Positions 32,109-41,679 of a stretch of DNA of 64,000 nt are shown one piece after another. Positions within the stretch are counted from its first letter, which is position 1; every line of letters begins with the position of its first letter. This DNA comes from Flectobacillus major DSM 103 (lineage in GTDB: Bacteria; Bacteroidota; Bacteroidia; Cytophagales; Spirosomataceae), in the NCBI RefSeq assembly GCF_000427405.1, contig NZ_KE386491.1, positions 4,411,812 to 4,475,811 on the forward strand, given 5' to 3'. A model generated the notes under the pieces. It was not told the origin of the DNA and made no database searches. It saw nothing but the letters and a program-made list of their open reading frames with translations. The position numbers and the translations under genes are program-made.

Positions 32109-32555
32109 ATGAGTATATTGGAGCCGTCAGAAAACAAACTATCCAACAATAAGCCTATTTTATATTCTGACCAACTGTCGTTGTACGATGAATATGGTGC
32201 ATTGGCTTATGGGATTATCTTGCAGATAATTCCGCAGGAACAACTTGCTCAGGAAGTACTTGTTGATTTATTTAGTTCATCTTCGTTACAGCAGTGCAAC
32301 GAAAATGTGGTTAGTAAAACAATTTGTATTATTAGAAATGCAAGAGCAAAAGCAATAGCATGGAAATCAAAATTAGCTGCTGTATCGGCTGCTAATGACT
32401 ATACCACTTCAGGTAAAACTTTGCCTGAAATAGTATTTGATTTGTCATTCAAGCAGGGTATTTCTACAGAGGTAATTGCCGAAAAACTCAATGTTTCAAA
32501 AGAACGAGTACTGAAAGCAATTAATGAATATTTTAAAATATATCGCCAATCTTAA
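32109..32555 (+). CDS. Sigma-70-like protein, partly degenerate
   Basis: A 148-residue protein resembling a shortened ECF sigma factor. LYDEYGALAYGIILQIIPQEQLAQEVLVDLF near residues 25-55 (read in parts) matches region 2 of SigK-type sigma factors. The C-terminal ISTEVIAEKLNVSKERVLKAI resembles the region 4 helix-turn-helix. The stretch between them is short, and the conserved Trp/Arg-rich promoter-melting part of region 2 is poorly kept (CIIRNARAKAIAWKSK). It may be a working divergent sigma factor or one that has lost promoter binding. An anti-sigma-like gene follows 12 nt later. Confidence 0.65.
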   Translation: MSILEPSENKLSNNKPILYSDQLSLYDEYGALAYGIILQIIPQEQLAQEVLVDLFSSSSLQQCNENVVSKTICIIRNARAKAIAWKSKLAAVSAANDYTTSGKTLPEIVFDLSFKQGISTEVIAEKLNVSKERVLKAINEYFKIYRQS

Positions 32556-32567
32556 CTTTGTATCAAG

Positions 32568-33050
32568 TTGAATACTCAAGAATATATAGAAAGTGGTATT
32601 TTGGAAGCCTATCTTTTGGGTTTGGTATCTGATGCTGAACAAAAAGAGGTGGATAAAAACCTTCGTGATTTTCCAGAGATTTATGTTGCTGTAAAGGAAT
32701 TGGAAAATACAATTAATGATCACTTCTCCACTCATGCTGTACCTCCACCTCCAGCGGTTCGCTCGCGGGTTCAATTTAAAGAAGAGAAGCAAGAAGTGAA
32801 AAAATGGCATTTTACCGATCAAGGTGAAACGACCCAAAAACCTAAAGAAGAGCAGAGCTATCTTGAAATAGAAGTAAACAATACACATATTAATGTGCAT
32901 AAGTACTGGCGACCTGCATTTATCGCTGTATTTATATTATCGAAAATATTTTTGATACTAGCAGTGTATTTTTACTTCAAAGCCGACACACTAGATAAAG
33001 AAAATGCACGCTTGACTAAAGAAATTGAAGCGAAATACAAAAATAAGTGA
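32568..33050 (+). CDS. Anti-sigma-factor-like membrane protein
   Basis: A 160-residue protein that starts with TTG (no ATG is available near the conserved N-terminus). NTQEYIESGILEAYLLGLVS at residues 2-21 is the N-terminal signature of RskA-like anti-sigma-K proteins in Bacteroidota. A single transmembrane helix spans about residues 117-138, followed by a short coiled-coil tail. The usual large periplasmic domain is missing, so the protein has only about 20 residues outside. Location next to the sigma-like gene supports a pair. Confidence 0.7.
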   Translation: MNTQEYIESGILEAYLLGLVSDAEQKEVDKNLRDFPEIYVAVKELENTINDHFSTHAVPPPPAVRSRVQFKEEKQEVKKWHFTDQGETTQKPKEEQSYLEIEVNNTHINVHKYWRPAFIAVFILSKIFLILAVYFYFKADTLDKENARLTKEIEAKYKNK

Positions 33051-33088: not shown

Positions 33089-33116
33089 GGTATCACTAAC
33101 CATTTTAATTTAGAGG

Positions 33117-33155
33117 CTAAACCACTCATAGCGATTATGAGTGGTTTAGTTTTTA
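33117..33155 (+). terminator. Terminator serving the sigma/anti-sigma operon
   Basis: A 14-bp perfect stem (33117-33130 with 33136-33149) with a 5-nt loop and a T-run on the plus strand. Confidence 0.85.
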
Positions 33156-33159
33156 TGAG

Positions 33160-34734
33160 TTATTTTACGCCATCAGCTTTACCTCGCAATACAGCTCTTT
33201 CGCCCACCAATTGACCGTATTTTAGGCCATATTCACAGTCCATACGGTAGTGAATACCACCCATGAGCCTCGACATAGAGGCTTCTTTGGCCATGGCATC
33301 AAACTTTGAAGCATCTGATGGAAACAAGTAACTTAGTACTGTAGATGCTGCTGCCGAAAACGTTGAGTGCCCCGACGAATACGCAGGAAAATTAGGTACG
33401 CCCGTCAAGGTCTTGATACTTGGATCGGCCTGACTAGGTCTAGGAAAATAGTAATACGACTTGGTGTACCAGCAACTTATGGCTGCATCCATCATAGCAG
33501 AATTTAGTAAAGCAAAGCTTCGGGCAGCCCTAAACTCCGATTGTTTTTCCTGAGCCACATAGTTGGCTGCAATGGCATTCCAGTGGCCTGGAGGAGTGTA
33601 TGTACCTGCACCATCAGCCCAAAAATGCACAATAGCAATATTTTCTCTAGTAGCTTTGGTAGTTACATATTCTTTTACTTCAGCTACCTGTTTTTTAAAC
33701 TCTTCCGATTTGTAGGCCAAAGGAGGGTATTTGGTACTAATATCTTTTAAAGTAGCAAAATCCATATTCCATGTTTTTACATTACCAAAGAATGGTAACA
33801 TAGGAGGGCGAGGAGCATTCTCTAATGAAACCCAAGCTACTTCACCTTTTTCCTCTACTCTTTTGGCCAAGCTATCCCATTGAGCTTTTACCCCAATGGC
33901 ATTTCTCATACCATCGCTAGTAAAGCGAGCCAATACTTTTGTAGCAATAGCTTTGCCCAATTTTTCTCCAGCTTCAATATCTGATTTTGTCGAAGCTCCA
34001 GCCCACAATTTATACCATTTTTGTTCTTCTTTTTTCTTGTACAAAAACAAAGTGTCTTCTGTAGCAGGGAATAACCTTTTCATCATTTCATACGTTACAG
34101 CTGCCATTACTGCATCTTCAGAAGGGAAAGAAGGCAATGTTGATTTTGTAACAATAACAGGGGCAATAGTAGCATCTACCTGATATGGAGCTTTACGCTT
34201 GTACAATTGTTTGTAGGCCATTGCCGCTACCAAAGCATCATATTGTGCTACCGACACATAAGCATACGAGCGTGATGCGTAAGGCGGGTTGGCAAAAGGA
34301 AACATTGGGTCAGCATTGGGATTGGCTGCATTTGGAATGGGGTATTCTCCGCTGTTGTTTTCGGCAGGAGGGAGGTTGCGTTTGGCTACCAAACTACGCA
34401 TAATCTGATTCCAACGAAGAATACCTCCGCCAGCCCAATAGCGGATAGCTACACGCTGGTCGTCGGTAATATTAGCTACAGCTGTTTTTACAGCTGCCAA
34501 TTCGCTTTGATAACTGCTAGAAGTTACGGCCTCTGGGGCTGTCAAGGGAACTTCTGTAGCAGACTGAAGAATAAATGGCTTCCATGTGCCAGCATCATCG
34601 TCAACTTTGGCAGGAACAAGCGGGTCTAGTTCTGTACCGTCACGGTCTAAGCTTTTTTCACAAGCCCACAAGATAGTGATAACAGCCGCAACAGAAAAAA
34701 TAGTCTTTATATTAAAATGTAATAATTTTTTCAT
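33160..34734 (-). CDS. Vanadium-haloperoxidase/PAP2-like lipoprotein
   Basis: A 524-residue protein with a lipoprotein signal (lipobox ILWAC, Cys 25). The C-terminal half has the acid-phosphatase/vanadium-haloperoxidase core: RPSQAD near residue 432, YSSGHSTFSAAA near residue 453 and SRLMGGIHYRMDCE near residue 488, containing the oxyanion-binding Arg, Ser-Gly-His and the axial His. Such enzymes either hydrolyse phosphate esters or bind vanadate and oxidise halides; sequence alone does not decide. It is the last gene of a five-gene minus-strand cluster. Confidence 0.87.
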   Translation of the reverse strand: MKKLLHFNIKTIFSVAAVITILWACEKSLDRDGTELDPLVPAKVDDDAGTWKPFILQSATEVPLTAPEAVTSSSYQSELAAVKTAVANITDDQRVAIRYWAGGGILRWNQIMRSLVAKRNLPPAENNSGEYPIPNAANPNADPMFPFANPPYASRSYAYVSVAQYDALVAAMAYKQLYKRKAPYQVDATIAPVIVTKSTLPSFPSEDAVMAAVTYEMMKRLFPATEDTLFLYKKKEEQKWYKLWAGASTKSDIEAGEKLGKAIATKVLARFTSDGMRNAIGVKAQWDSLAKRVEEKGEVAWVSLENAPRPPMLPFFGNVKTWNMDFATLKDISTKYPPLAYKSEEFKKQVAEVKEYVTTKATRENIAIVHFWADGAGTYTPPGHWNAIAANYVAQEKQSEFRAARSFALLNSAMMDAAISCWYTKSYYYFPRPSQADPSIKTLTGVPNFPAYSSGHSTFSAAASTVLSYLFPSDASKFDAMAKEASMSRLMGGIHYRMDCEYGLKYGQLVGERAVLRGKADGVK

Positions 34735-34781
34735 TTTGTTAGTTAATTTTTTAATAGATTAATACTATTAGGAAATCTATT

Positions 34782-35774
34782 TTAATTATGTTTTTCTTCG
34801 CTTGTAGCACCAACGTGGTTGGCATCGCCAGGGCGACAGATTGGACCTGAAGGAATACCTGAAACTTTGTTTTTGCGGAGGTCGATATATTGTAAAATGC
34901 CAATTGAGAAGGTTGTTGATTTTCCAACATTGCGTCCTGCTACGATATGGCCAACAGTTGCCTGAATTTGTAGGTCTTTCAATTGCGGAATACGGTAAGC
35001 CGCTACTACGCCAACACGAGTAAAGTCCATTTTAGCACAAAGGCCTGGCATATCGTTGCGTCTGATGTCTATGTCGCCCTGAACGATATTCTGTTCGTAA
35101 GTAGCCTCCAATTGCCAACGATAAGAGTAATGACCAAATTTAGCTCCAAAGTTTACTACATCTGGCATCATCATTTCGTTAGTAAAATATGCTTGGTCAG
35201 AAAAATACATTTCTCTATCCACCTTTACGTTGGTACGGTGTGTATATGACCCCTGTGCCGTAATAGCAAGCTCATGAGGTAGTGTATAGTAAAGAATCCC
35301 TCTTGAGAAAAATGTTTTGCTTTGCATACCTATCGCCAAAGGCAAGAAGTCGGCAACATAATTATTGGTAGGAATAGACCCACCAACCGAACCAATGATA
35401 GATAAATTTTTGATTTGGGCAATACGGTACTTCAGTGCCAAACTTAAATCCTGAAAACCATTCATCCCTTTCAATGTGCCTTTCGATGCCTCTGTTTTAA
35501 CGTATGGCAACATAAATAGCACATTGAATCGGTCTGAAATACCATAATTACCTACAGCCGCAATCGACTGTGTAGTTACAGTACCAAGGTTTTTATTTTC
35601 ACGGAAAAGTGTACCTTCCCAGTATTTGTTCCAAGAATCGTGTGTATAGGTAATACCTCCACAAAAATTATTTTTGGCCATAAAAATCCCATCCGTCATA
35701 TTTTGGGCAGATAGTATTGGCATTGACAAAATCAGCAATAAGCCTGATATGAAAAGGTTTCTAAATTTAAACAT
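34782..35774 (-). CDS. Outer-membrane beta-barrel protein (transporter-like)
   Basis: A 330-residue protein with a signal peptide (about residues 1-23, ending ILSAQ). Repeated amphipathic strands (ISDRFNVLFMLPYV, LSLALKYRIAQI, YRWQLEATYEQNI) resemble the MetA/phenol-degradation-type outer-membrane transporter family. The C-terminus is polar (EEKHN) and extends beyond the last strand. It lies 47 nt before the haloperoxidase-like gene and is very likely co-transcribed. Confidence 0.75.
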   Translation of the reverse strand: MFKFRNLFISGLLLILSMPILSAQNMTDGIFMAKNNFCGGITYTHDSWNKYWEGTLFRENKNLGTVTTQSIAAVGNYGISDRFNVLFMLPYVKTEASKGTLKGMNGFQDLSLALKYRIAQIKNLSIIGSVGGSIPTNNYVADFLPLAIGMQSKTFFSRGILYYTLPHELAITAQGSYTHRTNVKVDREMYFSDQAYFTNEMMMPDVVNFGAKFGHYSYRWQLEATYEQNIVQGDIDIRRNDMPGLCAKMDFTRVGVVAAYRIPQLKDLQIQATVGHIVAGRNVGKSTTFSIGILQYIDLRKNKVSGIPSGPICRPGDANHVGATSEEKHN

Positions 35775-35858
35775 CTCGTCTTTAATAAGGGGCTAAATGA
35801 ATTGGAGAATAAATCTATATAGCTAGCCGAAAGTAAATACAATTCGGCTGTGCTGATA

Positions 35859-36959
35859 TTAAAATCTATGAGAAAGCGTTGCCGAGATAAAGTAGTCAGC
35901 AAATGCTGCATCGCCATGTTTGCCATATTTCAAATCAGCAACACTTTTGATACGGTTACGAGTAGTGGCTACAGGTACTGTTACAGCAATAGAGCTTTTG
36001 CCTTTCGAGTACGAAAGTCCTGGTTCTACCGAAATAATATAGCCTGGTCGTCTGAAGCCTTCACTCTTGCCAAAAACATCATGAGCAGGTACACCTTCTA
36101 TTCTACCGCCAAAACTTACAGCTAGTCCAGCTTTAGCAAGAAGAGCATACGAAGCCCCGATACGTCCAGCAAATTGGTCTGCTACAGAATGATACACAAC
36201 GATTTCATTAGCTGCTGCTTCTTTTGTTACTGAATTGAGGGTGTTATTAGTGTTTCGAGGATTAAACAGATAAAAGCCATTAAAATATAATACAGTTTTA
36301 TTAAATAGTTTTTGGAAACCCTGAATCTCAAGGTTTGCACCCCAGCCACCATCGCCTAATTGAATCGATTGGTCAACTGATTTGGTCAAGAGGTACTCTT
36401 TACCTTCTTTGTCTAGTTTATGAAATTGTCCTTGAACATTTGAATTACCTGTTGGGGCTTTTACTCCAACTCCCAAGGCAATATTACCATTCATATTTTT
36501 GATAGGGTCAAGTAACCAATAGGTAGCAGACAAACGAATATCGCCTAAGCCCGACGACTTTGTGTCGAAATATTGAGCATTGGCAGCAGTGTTGCCATAG
36601 TGTTCGTATTTTGAAGCACGAACATTGATAGCGATAGGAATATTCAATGCCACGCTAAGGCGGTCAGTTAAGCTATAAGCAATACCCAAGTCAAAACCTT
36701 GTGAGTCGTTGATTACCTCAGTGTTGTTGGCCGCACGTTGTTTTTGTTCTTCTGTGCCTACAAAATGGCGGTGTGAATGAAGGCTACGAAAGCCTAATGT
36801 AGCTTGCCATTGTCCAGGATGTAGCATCGATGTAGCGTTTGTGCCTGTACCTGTGGCACAGCTCATGTGACGAACCGCTACACACCCTTGAGATAAAATT
36901 TTAAAATTTATTGAAAAAATACAAAAAAAGGTAATCGCAAATTTGGAGAAATTTTTCAT
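35859..36959 (-). CDS. Outer-membrane beta-barrel protein
   Basis: A 366-residue protein with a signal peptide (about residues 1-23, ending ILSQ), directly followed by a Cys pair region (GCVAVRHMSCATG). The rest shows barrel-type alternation, for example LSVALNIPIAINV and IRLSATYWLL, ending in the aromatic ATLSHRF typical of outer-membrane insertion. Its general plan is like the neighbour at 34782-35774. Substrate unknown. Confidence 0.75.
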   Translation of the reverse strand: MKNFSKFAITFFCIFSINFKILSQGCVAVRHMSCATGTGTNATSMLHPGQWQATLGFRSLHSHRHFVGTEEQKQRAANNTEVINDSQGFDLGIAYSLTDRLSVALNIPIAINVRASKYEHYGNTAANAQYFDTKSSGLGDIRLSATYWLLDPIKNMNGNIALGVGVKAPTGNSNVQGQFHKLDKEGKEYLLTKSVDQSIQLGDGGWGANLEIQGFQKLFNKTVLYFNGFYLFNPRNTNNTLNSVTKEAAANEIVVYHSVADQFAGRIGASYALLAKAGLAVSFGGRIEGVPAHDVFGKSEGFRRPGYIISVEPGLSYSKGKSSIAVTVPVATTRNRIKSVADLKYGKHGDAAFADYFISATLSHRF

Positions 36960-37068
36960 AGATAGCTGAAATTTAATGACTTGTATGTATACAGAGATTC
37001 TGTTGGATAAAATTTATCCAAAGTGATCTAGCACAATCGAATAGGTTGTGTTAAGAAGTCAATAAAAA

Positions 37069-37617
37069 TTAGCTATGCCGGGGTGGTGGCGAGTGGGTAT
37101 CTAACGAGCGGCTCCAGGTCGTAAATACATGGATAGTTTTTGGGCGAGGATACACCCAGTCCAATACAAAGAATATATGTCTCTTCTCTGAAGACATGTA
37201 TTCTTTCACAAAGTTTTTGAGTAATTGCGAAGATGACTTTTTCGACAAGTCATTGTCATGATCACTTACATGTTCGTTGATATGCGAAGCAAGGTTGAAA
37301 AAGCGGTCACGGGCTGTTTGGTCTATTTTACAAACGGTATAGAGCGTATCATTGACCAATTTTTGCGAAATCATCTGGTAATGTTTATCGCCCTGACGCA
37401 AAGTTCCTTTTACTTGTGTTGGGGTACTCCAGTCAGTTTGATAAGGCAATGAAAGGGGCATTTTGATCAATACATAATCTTGCTTTCCTTCTATTGGCTC
37501 GGCAATTTGTGTAAAATCATTTTTCGCTAAATTATCTTCTATCCAGTATACAACCGAGAACCCCATCATGTTGTACAACAGGAGTCCGAAGAATAATATG
37601 GAAAGAATTCGTTTCAA
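37069..37617 (-). CDS. Membrane-anchored hypothetical protein
   Basis: A 182-residue protein with one N-terminal hydrophobic helix (about residues 4-25) that may anchor it or act as a signal. The rest is soluble, with a His-containing segment (ASHINEHVSDHDND) and a C-terminal tail ending SPPPRHS. I recognise no family. Its position between a haloperoxidase-like gene and two barrel genes on the same strand suggests a shared job. Confidence 0.65.
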   Translation of the reverse strand: MKRILSILFFGLLLYNMMGFSVVYWIEDNLAKNDFTQIAEPIEGKQDYVLIKMPLSLPYQTDWSTPTQVKGTLRQGDKHYQMISQKLVNDTLYTVCKIDQTARDRFFNLASHINEHVSDHDNDLSKKSSSQLLKNFVKEYMSSEKRHIFFVLDWVYPRPKTIHVFTTWSRSLDTHSPPPRHS

Positions 37618-37757
37618 GGGATAATAATTTTACTTTTTCTCTAAACAAATTTACACAATAAATTATAAAACTTTTAGCCTCAAAAGTACATTCTTGATAA
37701 TGTACAAGTTTCATGAGAACAAACAGAGAGGTTATGAGGCATTAACCTCTCGATATT

Positions 37758-39170
37758 CTATAGCGAAAAGATAAGATTATTGACATTTCGCCCTATTTTT
37801 TTACCTTCTCGCAGACCAACTTCATTGTCTTGTCGTGTATGAATACCACCCAAAAAGCGAGACATTGCCGATTCATCAGCAAACTCATAGAAGTTATTAA
37901 AAGAGCGTTGTTTGAAGGGGGTATTCGTAGCGGGGTCGTTGGCTCGGCCATTATGCGAGTTGTCGATAAACTTAAAGTTATTGCCATACACAAATGTAAG
38001 AACTTCGGCAGCCGCTCCAGATTGTGTAGCATGACCCGACGAATACCCTGGAAATGGAGGTGCTGGCCAAAATGGTTTCCAATCGGGGTCTATTGAACGC
38101 CTCACCATGGTATAAGGGCGTTCGTTCATGTAGGTAAACTTCCCTTTCCAGCAACCAATAAAGGCATCGGCTACAGCAATGCCTGTTCGGGCAAAACCCT
38201 CTACAGCTTTACCAAGGGTAGTTTTGCTTGATTTGGCAGCAATGTTAGCAATATTGTACGAATGCCCAGGAGGTGTAAACGTTTCGGAAGGATTGTCGGC
38301 CCACCATACTGCTATTTCTTTTTCTTCTGTACTAAGGGTTTTGTTTTTGGTGTATACTTCTAAATACTGGGCGAAGTATTGCGAAGTAATACTACTCGAA
38401 AACGGGATAGGTGCTGGCATTGCCAACGTGGTATTGGAGGGTACAAAGGTACGGTTATTTCCCCAAGTAGGTTGCATCGGAATCTTCTGGCCATTTTCGG
38501 TAGCCTGCCATGCACCAGGAAATACGGGTGTTTTATACGTTACGGGAAAGTTGCGTTTATAACCCTCATGACCACCATCGGTTTTTGACCATTCAAAAAT
38601 GGCATTAGCAATAGCCTTGCCCAATTGAATAGACCTTGTTTGGGTATCGGTATTTGTTTGTTTGCTAAATGTTTCTAGCAAGGCTGTTTCTAAGGAATCT
38701 ATTACTTTTAGATTGTTGGTAGCTTGTGGCAGTGATGCCTCGGCATATAAAGCTCTGAGGATAGTGGCCTGGCCAGCATTCAGGCTAATTGCCCAATGAT
38801 ATGCTTTGCCTGCTTCGGGCTGAGGTAATTTGCTGAGACCACTGAGCTGCCCTGCCAAACTTTGGTGGTCGAGCATACCATGTACAATCGACTCGTACAT
38901 AGTAAGCCCCCCCAAACCGTATGCCCTAGAGGCTACAGGGGGTGTATATCCTGAGGTTTTTTGGGTTAAAATAAGCTGTAAGTCTGCCCATTTAGAAGCA
39001 ATTTCATAACTAAATTCATCTGCGGGATTGGGCGTACTGTTTGGTGCTGGCTCGTTATTCGATTTACAAGATGCTAATAACAATATGCCCAGAACAAAAT
39101 ATACAAAATGGACGGACAATACCTTGAATGGCAAAGTAGACCTACTTTGCGAGGTGCCTGATGACTTCAT
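37758..39170 (-). CDS. Vanadium-haloperoxidase/PAP2-like lipoprotein (second copy)
   Basis: A 470-residue lipoprotein (lipobox LLASC near residue 35). The PAP2/haloperoxidase core is present: MNERPYTMVRRS near residue 335, GYSSGHATQSGAAA near residue 360 and SRFLGGIHTRQDNEVG near residue 435. It shares the core with the gene at 33160-34734 but is clearly divergent and shorter. The first gene of the cluster; a long leader with a terminator-like hairpin lies before it. Confidence 0.87.
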   Translation of the reverse strand: MKSSGTSQSRSTLPFKVLSVHFVYFVLGILLLASCKSNNEPAPNSTPNPADEFSYEIASKWADLQLILTQKTSGYTPPVASRAYGLGGLTMYESIVHGMLDHQSLAGQLSGLSKLPQPEAGKAYHWAISLNAGQATILRALYAEASLPQATNNLKVIDSLETALLETFSKQTNTDTQTRSIQLGKAIANAIFEWSKTDGGHEGYKRNFPVTYKTPVFPGAWQATENGQKIPMQPTWGNNRTFVPSNTTLAMPAPIPFSSSITSQYFAQYLEVYTKNKTLSTEEKEIAVWWADNPSETFTPPGHSYNIANIAAKSSKTTLGKAVEGFARTGIAVADAFIGCWKGKFTYMNERPYTMVRRSIDPDWKPFWPAPPFPGYSSGHATQSGAAAEVLTFVYGNNFKFIDNSHNGRANDPATNTPFKQRSFNNFYEFADESAMSRFLGGIHTRQDNEVGLREGKKIGRNVNNLIFSL

Positions 39171-39621
39171 TGTAAGATATGTTTAAGTTCAAAATTGGGA
39201 AGCGTGGAGGGGGCGAACCTCGTCCCAATTCCTTGACGGACGTTGATTTACAGCAAAAATTATGCCGTATAGCCTTCTTACAACAATGATTGGCAGCAAA
39301 AAAACGCCCTTTCGGTTAGGAAAGAGCGTTGGAAAACTTATAAAGTAATGATGTAATTAGCAAAGAAAAATCGTTATAGGGTTAGATGAACAATATTAAG
39401 ACCCCTAGCATAAGGATAAGTCACATTCTACATGAAAAATAATTGAAATACACCGATTTATCTATCAAATAAACAAGTAAAAAGGCTTATTAACAAGGAT
39501 TAATTTTTTGAAATAGAATATTATAAAATACATTCCTACTAATTTAGAGGTGATTTTGAAAGGCTCAAGGCCAATTAGTAAAAAAAATACGTCTGATTGG
39601 CAGGGTATTTTGTGAAAAAAT
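39171..39621 (-). promoter_or_regulatory. Structured leader upstream of the second haloperoxidase-like gene
   Basis: 451 bases between divergent genes. On the minus strand, reading toward the gene: a promoter-like TTG, 20 nt, TTTATTTG (39466-39473); a 9-residue frame MLGVLILFI (39411-39382); then a stem (39330-39320 with 39313-39303) followed by seven T, like an intrinsic terminator; then a GC-rich patch (about 39201-39230) able to fold. The order resembles an attenuator. On the plus strand dnaG must have its own promoter here, but I did not identify it. Confidence 0.4.
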
Positions 39622-41679
39622 ATGAGAATAGACCAAGAAACAATAGAGCGAATAAAGCAGACAGCCCAAGTGGCAGACGTAATCGGAGATTATGTATCCT
39701 TGAAAAAGAAGGGAGCTAATTTGTGGGCTTGTTGTCCTTTTCATGGTGAAAAATCGCCCTCCTTTTCTGTTTCGCCTGCCAAGGGTATTTATAAATGCTT
39801 TGGCTGTGGCAAAGCTGGCGATGCCGTAAGGTTTATTATGGATATAGAGGGGCTTGGTTATGGTGAAGCATTGAGGCATTTGGCCAAAAAATACAGCATC
39901 GAGATTCAGGAAGCACCAATGACCGACGAACAGCAGTTGGCTCAAAACGAACGCGAAAGCTTGTATATTGCCCTGAATTATGCCAAAAACTATTTTCAAA
40001 ACAACCTTTTTACTCATGAAGAAGGGCAATCAATAGGCTATCCTTATTTTAAAGAAAGGGGTTTTTCTGATAAAACTATCAAGGCTTTTGATTTGGGATA
40101 TAGCCTTGAATCGTGGGATGCTTTTACCAAAGAGGCTATCAAGCAAGGCTACAATATTGATATTCTGGAAAAAGCTGGGCTAACTATTAGAAAACCCGAA
40201 GAAAATAAACAGTTTGACCGTTTTAGGAATAGGGTTATTTTTCCGATTCATAATGTATCGGGCAAAACAATTGCCTTTGGAGCAAGAATTTTAAAAACAG
40301 ATAAAAATCAACCAAAATACCTGAATTCGCCCGAAACAGAGGTGTATCATAAATCTCATATCTTGTATGGGATTTACCAAGCCAAAAATGCTATTCGAGC
40401 CAAAGATGTATGTTATTTGGTGGAGGGTTATACCGATGTGATTTCTCTTTATCAGGCTGGAATCGAAAATGTAGTGGCCTCGTCGGGTACATCTTTAACC
40501 CTTGAACAGATTCGTTTGATTGCACGATTTACCCAAAATATTACGGTACTTTACGATGGCGACCCTGCTGGTATCAAGGCTTCGTTGAGGGGAATGGACA
40601 TGATTTTGGAGGAAGGGCTCAATGTGAAATTGGTTGTTTTTCCTGAAGGCGAAGACCCCGACAGCTACGTACGAAATATTGGGTCGGAGGCTTTTATGCA
40701 ATATATTGCTGAACATTCATCAGATTTTATTACTTTCAAAGCCGAATTATTTTTGAAAGAAGCTGGTAACGACCCCTTCAAGCGTGCCGAACTTATCAAG
40801 GATATGGTGGGTAGTATTGCCAAAATCCCTGATTCTATTAAGCGTTCTGTATTTTTTCAGAAAACAGCTAGCTTGATGCAAATAGATGAAGGTATTTTGA
40901 TTTCGGAAAGCAATAAAATTACCTTAGAAAGAACCAAGCAAAAAGAAAAAGATTCACAACGTGATGCCAATAGGCAACGTCTACAACAGGATTTGCCTTC
41001 GGGGGTTTCTTTAAATAGTAATCCTTCTTTACCTCCAGATGATGTGGGCGGAGGAATGATGAGCTTTTCGGAAGAAGATGAGTATGTAGGTGATTATCCT
41101 GTTAGCAACGAGCCACAACCCGAGCCTCAGAAGGTTGCTCCTGTGTACACGGCTACTACATTACACGAACTAGAATGTATTAGGCTATTGGTAAACCACG
41201 GTACTAAAGAGGTAGACCCAGGTGTGGCACCAGGTGTAACATTGATGCAATATGTGCTGGGCGAAATAGATGGGATTAATTTTTCGACGCCTATTTATCA
41301 GGAAATATTAACGATTTGCCGAGAGAAGTTTTTACAAGGGGTAGTGCTAGACACGGCTTATTTTATTAGCCATCATATTGCCGAAATTCAGAATGAAGCC
41401 ATTAATTTGGCCTCCGAAAAACACGTTATTTCGGAAGAATGGATGAGCCGCCACGAAATTTTTGTGCCAACCGAAGAAGATAAATTGGCAGATATGGCTT
41501 ATACCAATATTTTGAGATTGAAAAAATCGTTTAATGATGAATACATCAAAACTTTGATGAAGCAACTTACTCAAGCCAAAGATCCACAAGAGCAAAACCG
41601 CTTGCTGAGCTTGTTTATGGAAGCCAAAGAAGTAGAGAAGCAAATTGCAAAAGAATTAGGAACAGTTGTGGTTAGATAA
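39622..41679 (+). CDS. dnaG: DNA primase
   Basis: A 685-residue enzyme that makes RNA primers at the replication fork. The N-terminal zinc-binding domain has CCPFHGEKSPSFSVSP and CFGCGKAGDAVRFIM (residues about 37-75; ligands C-x2-H and C-x2-C). The TOPRIM core includes YLVEGYTDVISLYQAG and VLYDGDPAGIKASLRG with the metal-binding acidic residues. A variable C-terminal third should carry the helicase-binding domain. Length is at the upper end of normal. A histidine phosphatase gene follows after 29 nt. Confidence 0.97.
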   Translation: MRIDQETIERIKQTAQVADVIGDYVSLKKKGANLWACCPFHGEKSPSFSVSPAKGIYKCFGCGKAGDAVRFIMDIEGLGYGEALRHLAKKYSIEIQEAPMTDEQQLAQNERESLYIALNYAKNYFQNNLFTHEEGQSIGYPYFKERGFSDKTIKAFDLGYSLESWDAFTKEAIKQGYNIDILEKAGLTIRKPEENKQFDRFRNRVIFPIHNVSGKTIAFGARILKTDKNQPKYLNSPETEVYHKSHILYGIYQAKNAIRAKDVCYLVEGYTDVISLYQAGIENVVASSGTSLTLEQIRLIARFTQNITVLYDGDPAGIKASLRGMDMILEEGLNVKLVVFPEGEDPDSYVRNIGSEAFMQYIAEHSSDFITFKAELFLKEAGNDPFKRAELIKDMVGSIAKIPDSIKRSVFFQKTASLMQIDEGILISESNKITLERTKQKEKDSQRDANRQRLQQDLPSGVSLNSNPSLPPDDVGGGMMSFSEEDEYVGDYPVSNEPQPEPQKVAPVYTATTLHELECIRLLVNHGTKEVDPGVAPGVTLMQYVLGEIDGINFSTPIYQEILTICREKFLQGVVLDTAYFISHHIAEIQNEAINLASEKHVISEEWMSRHEIFVPTEEDKLADMAYTNILRLKKSFNDEYIKTLMKQLTQAKDPQEQNRLLSLFMEAKEVEKQIAKELGTVVVR

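Follow-up and report, generated by a model that had tools for sequence, protein, structure and literature searches.

A haloperoxidase-like lipoprotein and a predicted outer-membrane channel form a conserved gene pair in Bacteroidota, found beside a dnaG-linked haloperoxidase-like gene in Flectobacillus major

Do two haloperoxidase-like lipoprotein genes that bracket two predicted outer-membrane barrels belong to one system? The question is raised by a locus of Flectobacillus major DSM 103 that was analysed within a 64,000-nucleotide stretch of DNA (contig NZ_KE386491.1, positions 4,411,812 to 4,475,811; hereafter the window). The open reading frame (ORF) listing of the window places five ORFs on the minus strand at 33160-39170, separated by gaps of 47, 84, 109 and 140 base pairs (bp). 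An original prediction, made from the sequence alone, took them for a surface oxidation or dephosphorylation system with its own outer-membrane channels. We find that the conserved unit is one of four genes, SP-BB-BA-VHA, with the BA-VHA pair as its core, and that the fifth gene, VHB, lies outside it. Our reading, to which we give a probability of roughly 0.45, is that of a four-gene outer-membrane module beside an unrelated VHB, in which VHA would be a vanadium-haloperoxidase-type enzyme and BA its dedicated COG4313-type channel. Bacteroidota genomes of this group carry several haloperoxidase-like genes each (four matches in the window genome), and we know of almost no roles for such genes in the phylum. 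The features of the locus are:

33160-34734, minus strand: VHA, a lipoprotein of 524 amino acids from the PAP2/vanadium-haloperoxidase superfamily; closes the four-gene unit
34782-35774, minus strand: BA, a predicted outer-membrane beta-barrel of the COG4313 type; constant neighbour of VHA
35859-36959, minus strand: BB, a second predicted barrel; mature N-terminus QGCVAVRHMS
37069-37617, minus strand: SP, 182 amino acids, with an N-terminal helix or signal anchor, a beta region and a C-terminal Pro-Pro; opens the four-gene unit
37758-39170, minus strand: VHB, a 470-amino-acid lipoprotein related to the Zobellia vanadium iodoperoxidase; a separate unit at the dnaG locus
37640-37757, minus strand: VHB-SP intergenic region, with a terminator-like hairpin and two -7-like boxes
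33111-33155, listed on the plus strand: terminator-like hairpin of 20 pairs, directly downstream of VHA

The layout agrees with the original prediction in the number, strand and spacing of the genes, and the characters that it assigned to them are borne out below: both end genes encode lipoproteins with the RP, SGH and GxH motifs, the two middle genes match an outer-membrane barrel family, and the small protein has an N-terminal helix in its model that fits an anchor.

Conservation was followed in three samples, namely 59 relatives, the best 80 of 562 confirmed relatives (the named loci, with L numbers) and 198 evenly drawn Bacteroidota genomes; VHA matches were accepted at E < 1e-60 in the 59 relatives and at E <= 1e-60 in the 198 genomes. 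The two genome samples share the window genome (G000), G034, G047 and G054, L131-L136 are places in G003, G002, G001, G004, G031 and G008, and the three pairing counts partly overlap. ORF starts were assigned mechanically and gaps in relatives are approximate. In the evenly drawn genomes BA adjoins VHA on the same strand at 18 of 18 VHA places; seven more genomes have only weaker barrel matches and no VHA. Among the 59 relatives, BA lies within 300 bp of a VHA-clade gene in 35 of 39 cases and, counted in reverse, 35 of 40 BA matches have VHA, the remaining five being weak (best E 7e-7). At the named loci BA is in the directon of VHA in 77 of 80 and directly upstream of it in 76, with a median gap of -4 bp. 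The contig begins at or within VHA at the three loci with no BA in the run (L161, L189 and L203), and every locus with 5.5 kb of upstream sequence has BA (70/70). Carriers of the pair include Flavobacterium, Niastella, Sediminibacterium, Mucilaginibacter, Pontibacter and Flectobacillus, among others. Two BA-VHA pairs are found in each of G007 and G021, where the copies of both proteins group by type and not by genome, and G031 has two pairs in tandem. BA and VHA have been inherited and duplicated as a pair; their linkage is not due to chance, and the pairing looks fixed by evolution. No description of the pair was found among the titles and abstracts that searches of open-licence PMC articles listed.

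VHA has a signal sequence with a lipobox Cys (LWAC; Cys25 is invariant, 28/28) and the active-site motifs K-x6-RP, SGH and SR-x3-G-x-H at K425, SGH454 and SR488. VHB has the same elements (LASC; K344, SGH378, SR437). Across 23 aligned VHA relatives K425, R432, S454-G455-H456, R489, H495, W422 and F449 are invariant. The score of VHA against Pfam PAP2 (PF01569) is 49.1 bits (cut-off 27.2), and PAP2 is the top Pfam family in 23/23 VHA members. Against the Zobellia galactanivorans iodoperoxidase 4cit, VHA reaches E 5.7e-16 as a single sequence and 9.3e-27 as a profile over 362 positions, while the profile matches to acid phosphatases span only about 80-110 positions and reach E 1e-9 at best. Class A acid phosphatases are single-domain proteins of about 220-260 residues, a size that the 524-residue VHA does not share. 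A Trp three residues before the Lys and a Phe five residues before the Ser are both placed as in 4cit. Since VHA aligns with 4cit over this length and keeps its Trp and Phe, we lean towards halide oxidation over dephosphorylation as its probable activity.

The K-x6-RP/SGH/SR-x5-H set is kept in every aligned VHA row except two, L115:4433-5941 and L121:4139-5737. These copies, which represent one of the two pair types seen in G007 and G021, lack the Gly of SGH, both active-site His and the Arg, yet each has its own BA, and they are possible pseudoenzyme-barrel pairs. Position 38 of BA is Cys in 77 of 82 rows and Ser in both BA partners (2/2, one clade) of the VHA copies that lack the catalytic His.

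BA scores 27.8 bits against PF13557 (Phenol_MetA_deg; cut-off 22), a family that only 9 of 65 BA members reach at E <= 0.001. An AlphaFold2 model built with 65 sequences has twelve long strands and a mean predicted local distance difference test (pLDDT) of 87.4. Its best structural match is 4rl8, a COG4313 channel, at Z 26.1 and a root-mean-square deviation (rmsd) of 2.1 over 251 residues (Foldseek E 1.8e-10); the next matches are FapF (Z 23.1) and then autotransporter barrels (Z <= 20). The modelled barrel starts at residue 36, about 12 residues past the probable signal-peptide cleavage site, and has no periplasmic extension. From this model we predict that BA forms a 12-stranded channel of the COG4313 type. 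As far as the excerpted text of PMC4493636 goes, such channels are implicated in the uptake of hydrophobic molecules, transport of hydrophilic solutes is judged unlikely for the best-studied one, and in one solved structure the N-terminal segment lies inside the lumen. The segment of BA that was compared with that lumen-folded N-terminus, residues 16-26, has a pLDDT below 50. The idea of an enzyme with its own outer-membrane channel is thus upheld in the original prediction, by the phylum-wide pairing (18/18) and a known channel fold.

Several observations weigh against the module as we read it. Four of the 39 VHA-like genes among the 59 relatives have no BA (G031:C223, G008:C24, G013:C14 and G028:C351, the last of which begins at a contig edge). 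In the 70 loci with 5.5 kb upstream, SP is present in 57 and BB in only 32. The distances of BA and VHA are correlated (r 0.91 over 82 pairs, a value reached in 0 of 2000 permutations), but this r is not corrected for species phylogeny and is inflated by shared descent, and we regard the grouping of the paralogues as more telling. Neither a catalase nor an oxidase nor a halide transporter emerged as a constant neighbour. The two active-site His of VHA are 39 residues apart, as in the acid phosphatases 7f18 and 8yc1, whereas the spacing is 56 in 4cit and 64 in VHB. Because VHA lacks the long His-His stretch of the haloperoxidase type, which VHB has, we call it haloperoxidase-like and not a confirmed haloperoxidase, and because its spacing equals that of 7f18 and 8yc1 it could be a phosphatase.

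BB and SP keep looser company with the pair. Among the 59 relatives, where three second fragments of BB matches were dropped from the tally, 19 of 39 VHA genes have BB within 4 kb and 25 have SP within 6 kb. SP lies within 1 kb of BB in 22 of 28 cases and BB is far from VHA in 8 of 28; on these counts BB-SP is a second, looser pair. BB is just above the cut-off of PF13557 (22.5 against 22 bits) and far under that of the NCBIfam FapF model (39.2 against 700). Its mature N-terminus has an invariant QGC-x-A (Q24, G25, C26 and A28, 29/29), and R58, R75, R114, R266, R286, R303, R304 and R336 are invariant as well.

The SP ORF starts with TTG, and P178-P179 is invariant (54/54). No Pfam family was found for SP, its 54 members giving just scattered weak matches in the Pfam scan. 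Its model (pLDDT 72.8, predicted template modelling score 0.38) is too uncertain to read and gave no match in the Protein Data Bank at E <= 0.001. SP is not specific to haloperoxidases: it has 64 matches in 30 of the 59 genomes, 26 of them within 6 kb of VHA, and elsewhere it neighbours genes for TonB receptors and for FG-GAP/ASPIC proteins, as well as at least seven further haloperoxidase genes, a minimum number chosen by eye for proximity and without a control. The window genome has five SP matches, and paralogues lie at L091:5104-5718, L092:5524-6063, L093:5266-5874 and L094:4906-5451. Carboxymuconolactone-decarboxylase-like proteins, a TonB receptor and an MFS transporter recur beside SP or the four-gene unit (L094:5634-10977, L122:11434-18535, L124:1174-10830 and L126:11156-15931), and DUF3179 genes also recur near this set.

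VHB falls below the Pfam cut-offs (PAP2 21.3 against 27.2; VCPO_N 21.7 against 29.3), matches 4cit at E 6.1e-53 over 394 residues, and lies in a clade separate from that of VHA, of which it is a distant paralogue. Its orthologues (at least 54% identity, loci L001-L019) have dnaG within 1.5 kb at 13 of 19 loci (L001-L004, L006, L007, L009-L011, L014, L015, L017 and L019), including genomes that carry the four-gene unit elsewhere. In the window the VHB-dnaG adjacency spans 37758-41679, and there is no obvious reason for its conservation. Of the five genomes of the genus, four (G000-G003) have VHB directly next to the four-gene unit, an arrangement seen in no further relative among the listed places; in the fifth, G004, VHB is at dnaG on contig 50 and contig 4 carries SP-BB-BA-VHA. 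VHB is part of the dnaG locus and a neighbour of the four-gene unit by position, a genus-specific linkage. The simplest account has the four-gene unit arriving next to VHB within Flectobacillus. We reject a single five-gene operon because VHB resides at dnaG (13/19), and the original prediction's picture of one system bracketed by two enzymes is not supported. The check that it had proposed, neighbourhood conservation of the five genes, divides them in the same way: the BA-VHA pair is kept, and the linkage of VHB is limited to 4/5 genomes of the genus.

In the intergenic region a hairpin of 9 pairs at 37751-37726 follows VHB and separates it from SP (a scan of 8 kb gave 13 terminator-like sites, against 6.6 expected). 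Ahead of SP are boxes of the form TANNTTTG at 37688 and 37653 (13 in 6.7 kb of both strands, against 6.7 expected), which we take to be the Bacteroidota -7-like consensus. No -33 element was found near these boxes, and a sigma-70 promoter scan was uninformative (22 found, 22.7 expected). The region is probably the promoter of the four-gene unit, although the hairpin and boxes are suggestive only and no proof of it. At the other end, the inverted repeat at 33111-33155 could also terminate the minus-strand transcript. Two short plus-strand ORFs (148 and 160 amino acids; 32109-33050) adjoin VHA; they have no confident Pfam family and were found again at just L111 and L131-L133, all of them Flectobacillus loci.

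Second haloperoxidase-like genes (VH2) are found inside the operons of other lineages. In Chitinophagaceae the order is SP-VH2-(BB)-BA-VHA, with BB at 16 loci and without it at 13; VH2 is also within the operon in one Saprospiraceae metagenome-assembled genome (L195), and the directons of the 80 loci hold 34 second haloperoxidase genes in all. The Chitinophagaceae VH2 group with the Zobellia iodoperoxidase (support 100/100), VHB groups with the VH2 of L195 (98/90), and VHA forms its own clade (100/100). Because the VH2 genes fall in different clades, a second enzyme appears to have joined the unit independently at least two, probably three, times. In 17 of 33 VH2 rows (L143, L146-L149, L155, L157 and others) Cys-Gly-His replaces Ser-Gly-His and the other site residues are kept; the Ser is presumably the one that binds the cofactor. 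The alignment thereby rules out a loss of the SGH motif in the VH2 of Sediminibacterium and its kin. Two further haloperoxidase-like genes of the window genome (G000:C6:648948-650225 and G000:C6:274712-275590) belong to the clade of the Zobellia iodoperoxidase.

How might such a module work? The likeliest mechanism is one in which VHA, as a vanadate-binding enzyme at the outer membrane, would use hydrogen peroxide for the oxidation of either a halide, namely iodide or bromide, or an organic substrate that is halide-dependent. BA would offer, beside VHA and perhaps in contact with it, a passage across the outer membrane for a small uncharged or hydrophobic reaction partner, such as hypohalous acid, I2 or an aromatic substrate or product. 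BB and SP would be accessory, BB being a further barrel whose mature N-terminus carries a conserved Cys and SP an anchored protein of the periplasm. This coupling of enzyme and channel is proposed by analogy, because of BA's kinship to channels and because a hydrogen peroxide-dependent uptake of iodine has been proposed for Arenibacter C-21 (in the excerpted text of PMC5064120). The least probable idea that we put forward, and a distinctly speculative one, is that VHA generates, at the entrance to its own channel, a short-lived and uncharged form of halogen or a halogenated product that the channel then passes across the outer membrane, that the N-terminal Cys of both barrels (Cys38 of BA, the QGC of BB) are oxidant-sensitive gates, and that a His-less VHA with a Ser38 BA is a non-catalytic, perhaps binding, form. 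Against such gates is a BA with Trp at position 38 beside an intact VHA (L110 and L135, one place seen twice).

Other explanations have to be weighed against the haloperoxidase-channel module. VHA might instead act at the surface as a PAP2-superfamily acid phosphatase or pyrophosphatase, with BA and BB as channels for released phosphate or organic phosphate. The His-His spacing of 39 and an SR-x5-H-x3-D end as in acid phosphatases, the PAP2 top family in all 23 VHA members and the invariant Arg of BB, which could favour anions, would all suit this proposal. We nevertheless consider it unlikely, if the most credible of the alternatives, given the end-to-end alignment of VHA with 4cit, the retained Trp and Phe, the absence of a recurring phosphate-uptake gene among the identified neighbour families, and the poor prospects of hydrophilic-solute transport in the studied COG4313 channel (excerpted text of PMC4493636). 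A term search of two Bacteroidota phosphatase papers likewise gave no mention of PAP2 or haloperoxidases. Slightly less credible again is that BA, instead of being a substrate channel, is dedicated to VHA itself and exports this lipoprotein, in the way that FapF secretes amyloid, or takes part in its assembly. One BA accompanies each VHA, even the two copies without active-site His and Arg (L115 and L121), and FapF is the second-best fold match; the top match, however, is a channel of the small-molecule type, BA has no periplasmic extension, and VHB and its orthologues, lipoproteins of the same superfamily, manage without any BA.

That both barrels and both enzymes make up one five-gene system, with VHB as a working part, we hold to be improbable. 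Here the VH2 genes inside operons of Chitinophagaceae and of the Saprospiraceae genome count in favour, and their two or three origins suggest that such a neighbour is useful; in the lineage of the window, however, VHB is tied to dnaG and not to the barrels, and a terminator-like hairpin stands between VHB and SP. Just as improbable, in our judgement, is a module that does not serve uptake and acts either in the detoxification of peroxide or reactive halogen or in the destruction of hydrophobic signals or toxins. Some relatives do have carboxymuconolactone-decarboxylase-like and DoxX-like neighbours, the former from a superfamily that we take to include the AhpD peroxidases, but these neighbours are not constant, and no induction data were found.

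The haloperoxidase-channel module, if correct, gives a handle on function through its fixed partner gene: one distinct clade of haloperoxidase-like enzymes would act at or through the outer membrane with a channel of its own. The BA-VHA pair is a two-gene unit amenable to deletion and assay. Should VHA oxidise halides, the pair would be a genetically defined candidate for hydrogen peroxide-dependent handling of iodine or bromine in freshwater, soil and marine Bacteroidota.

Among known systems, the Zobellia iodoperoxidase (4cit/4usz) shares with VHA and VHB the superfamily and the active-site residues W, K, R, P, F, S, G, H, R and H, but VHA lies in a separate clade and its stretch between the two His is 17 residues shorter. 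Class A acid phosphatases (1d2t, 2akc, 7f18 and 8yc1) have the PAP2 active-site motifs, and two of them, 7f18 and 8yc1, show the His-His spacing of VHA; the N-terminal half of VHA is missing from these enzymes, and 8yc1 lacks the Trp three residues before the Lys. The COG4313/PF13557 channels (Pput2725 4rl8, SphA and TcpY) resemble BA in its predicted 12-stranded barrel and comparable length, whereas BA has 14% identity and is the fixed partner of a haloperoxidase-like gene. The Pseudomonas amyloid exporter FapF, finally, is close to BA in fold and a weak sequence match of BB, from which it differs in that BB scores only 39 against a cut-off of 700.

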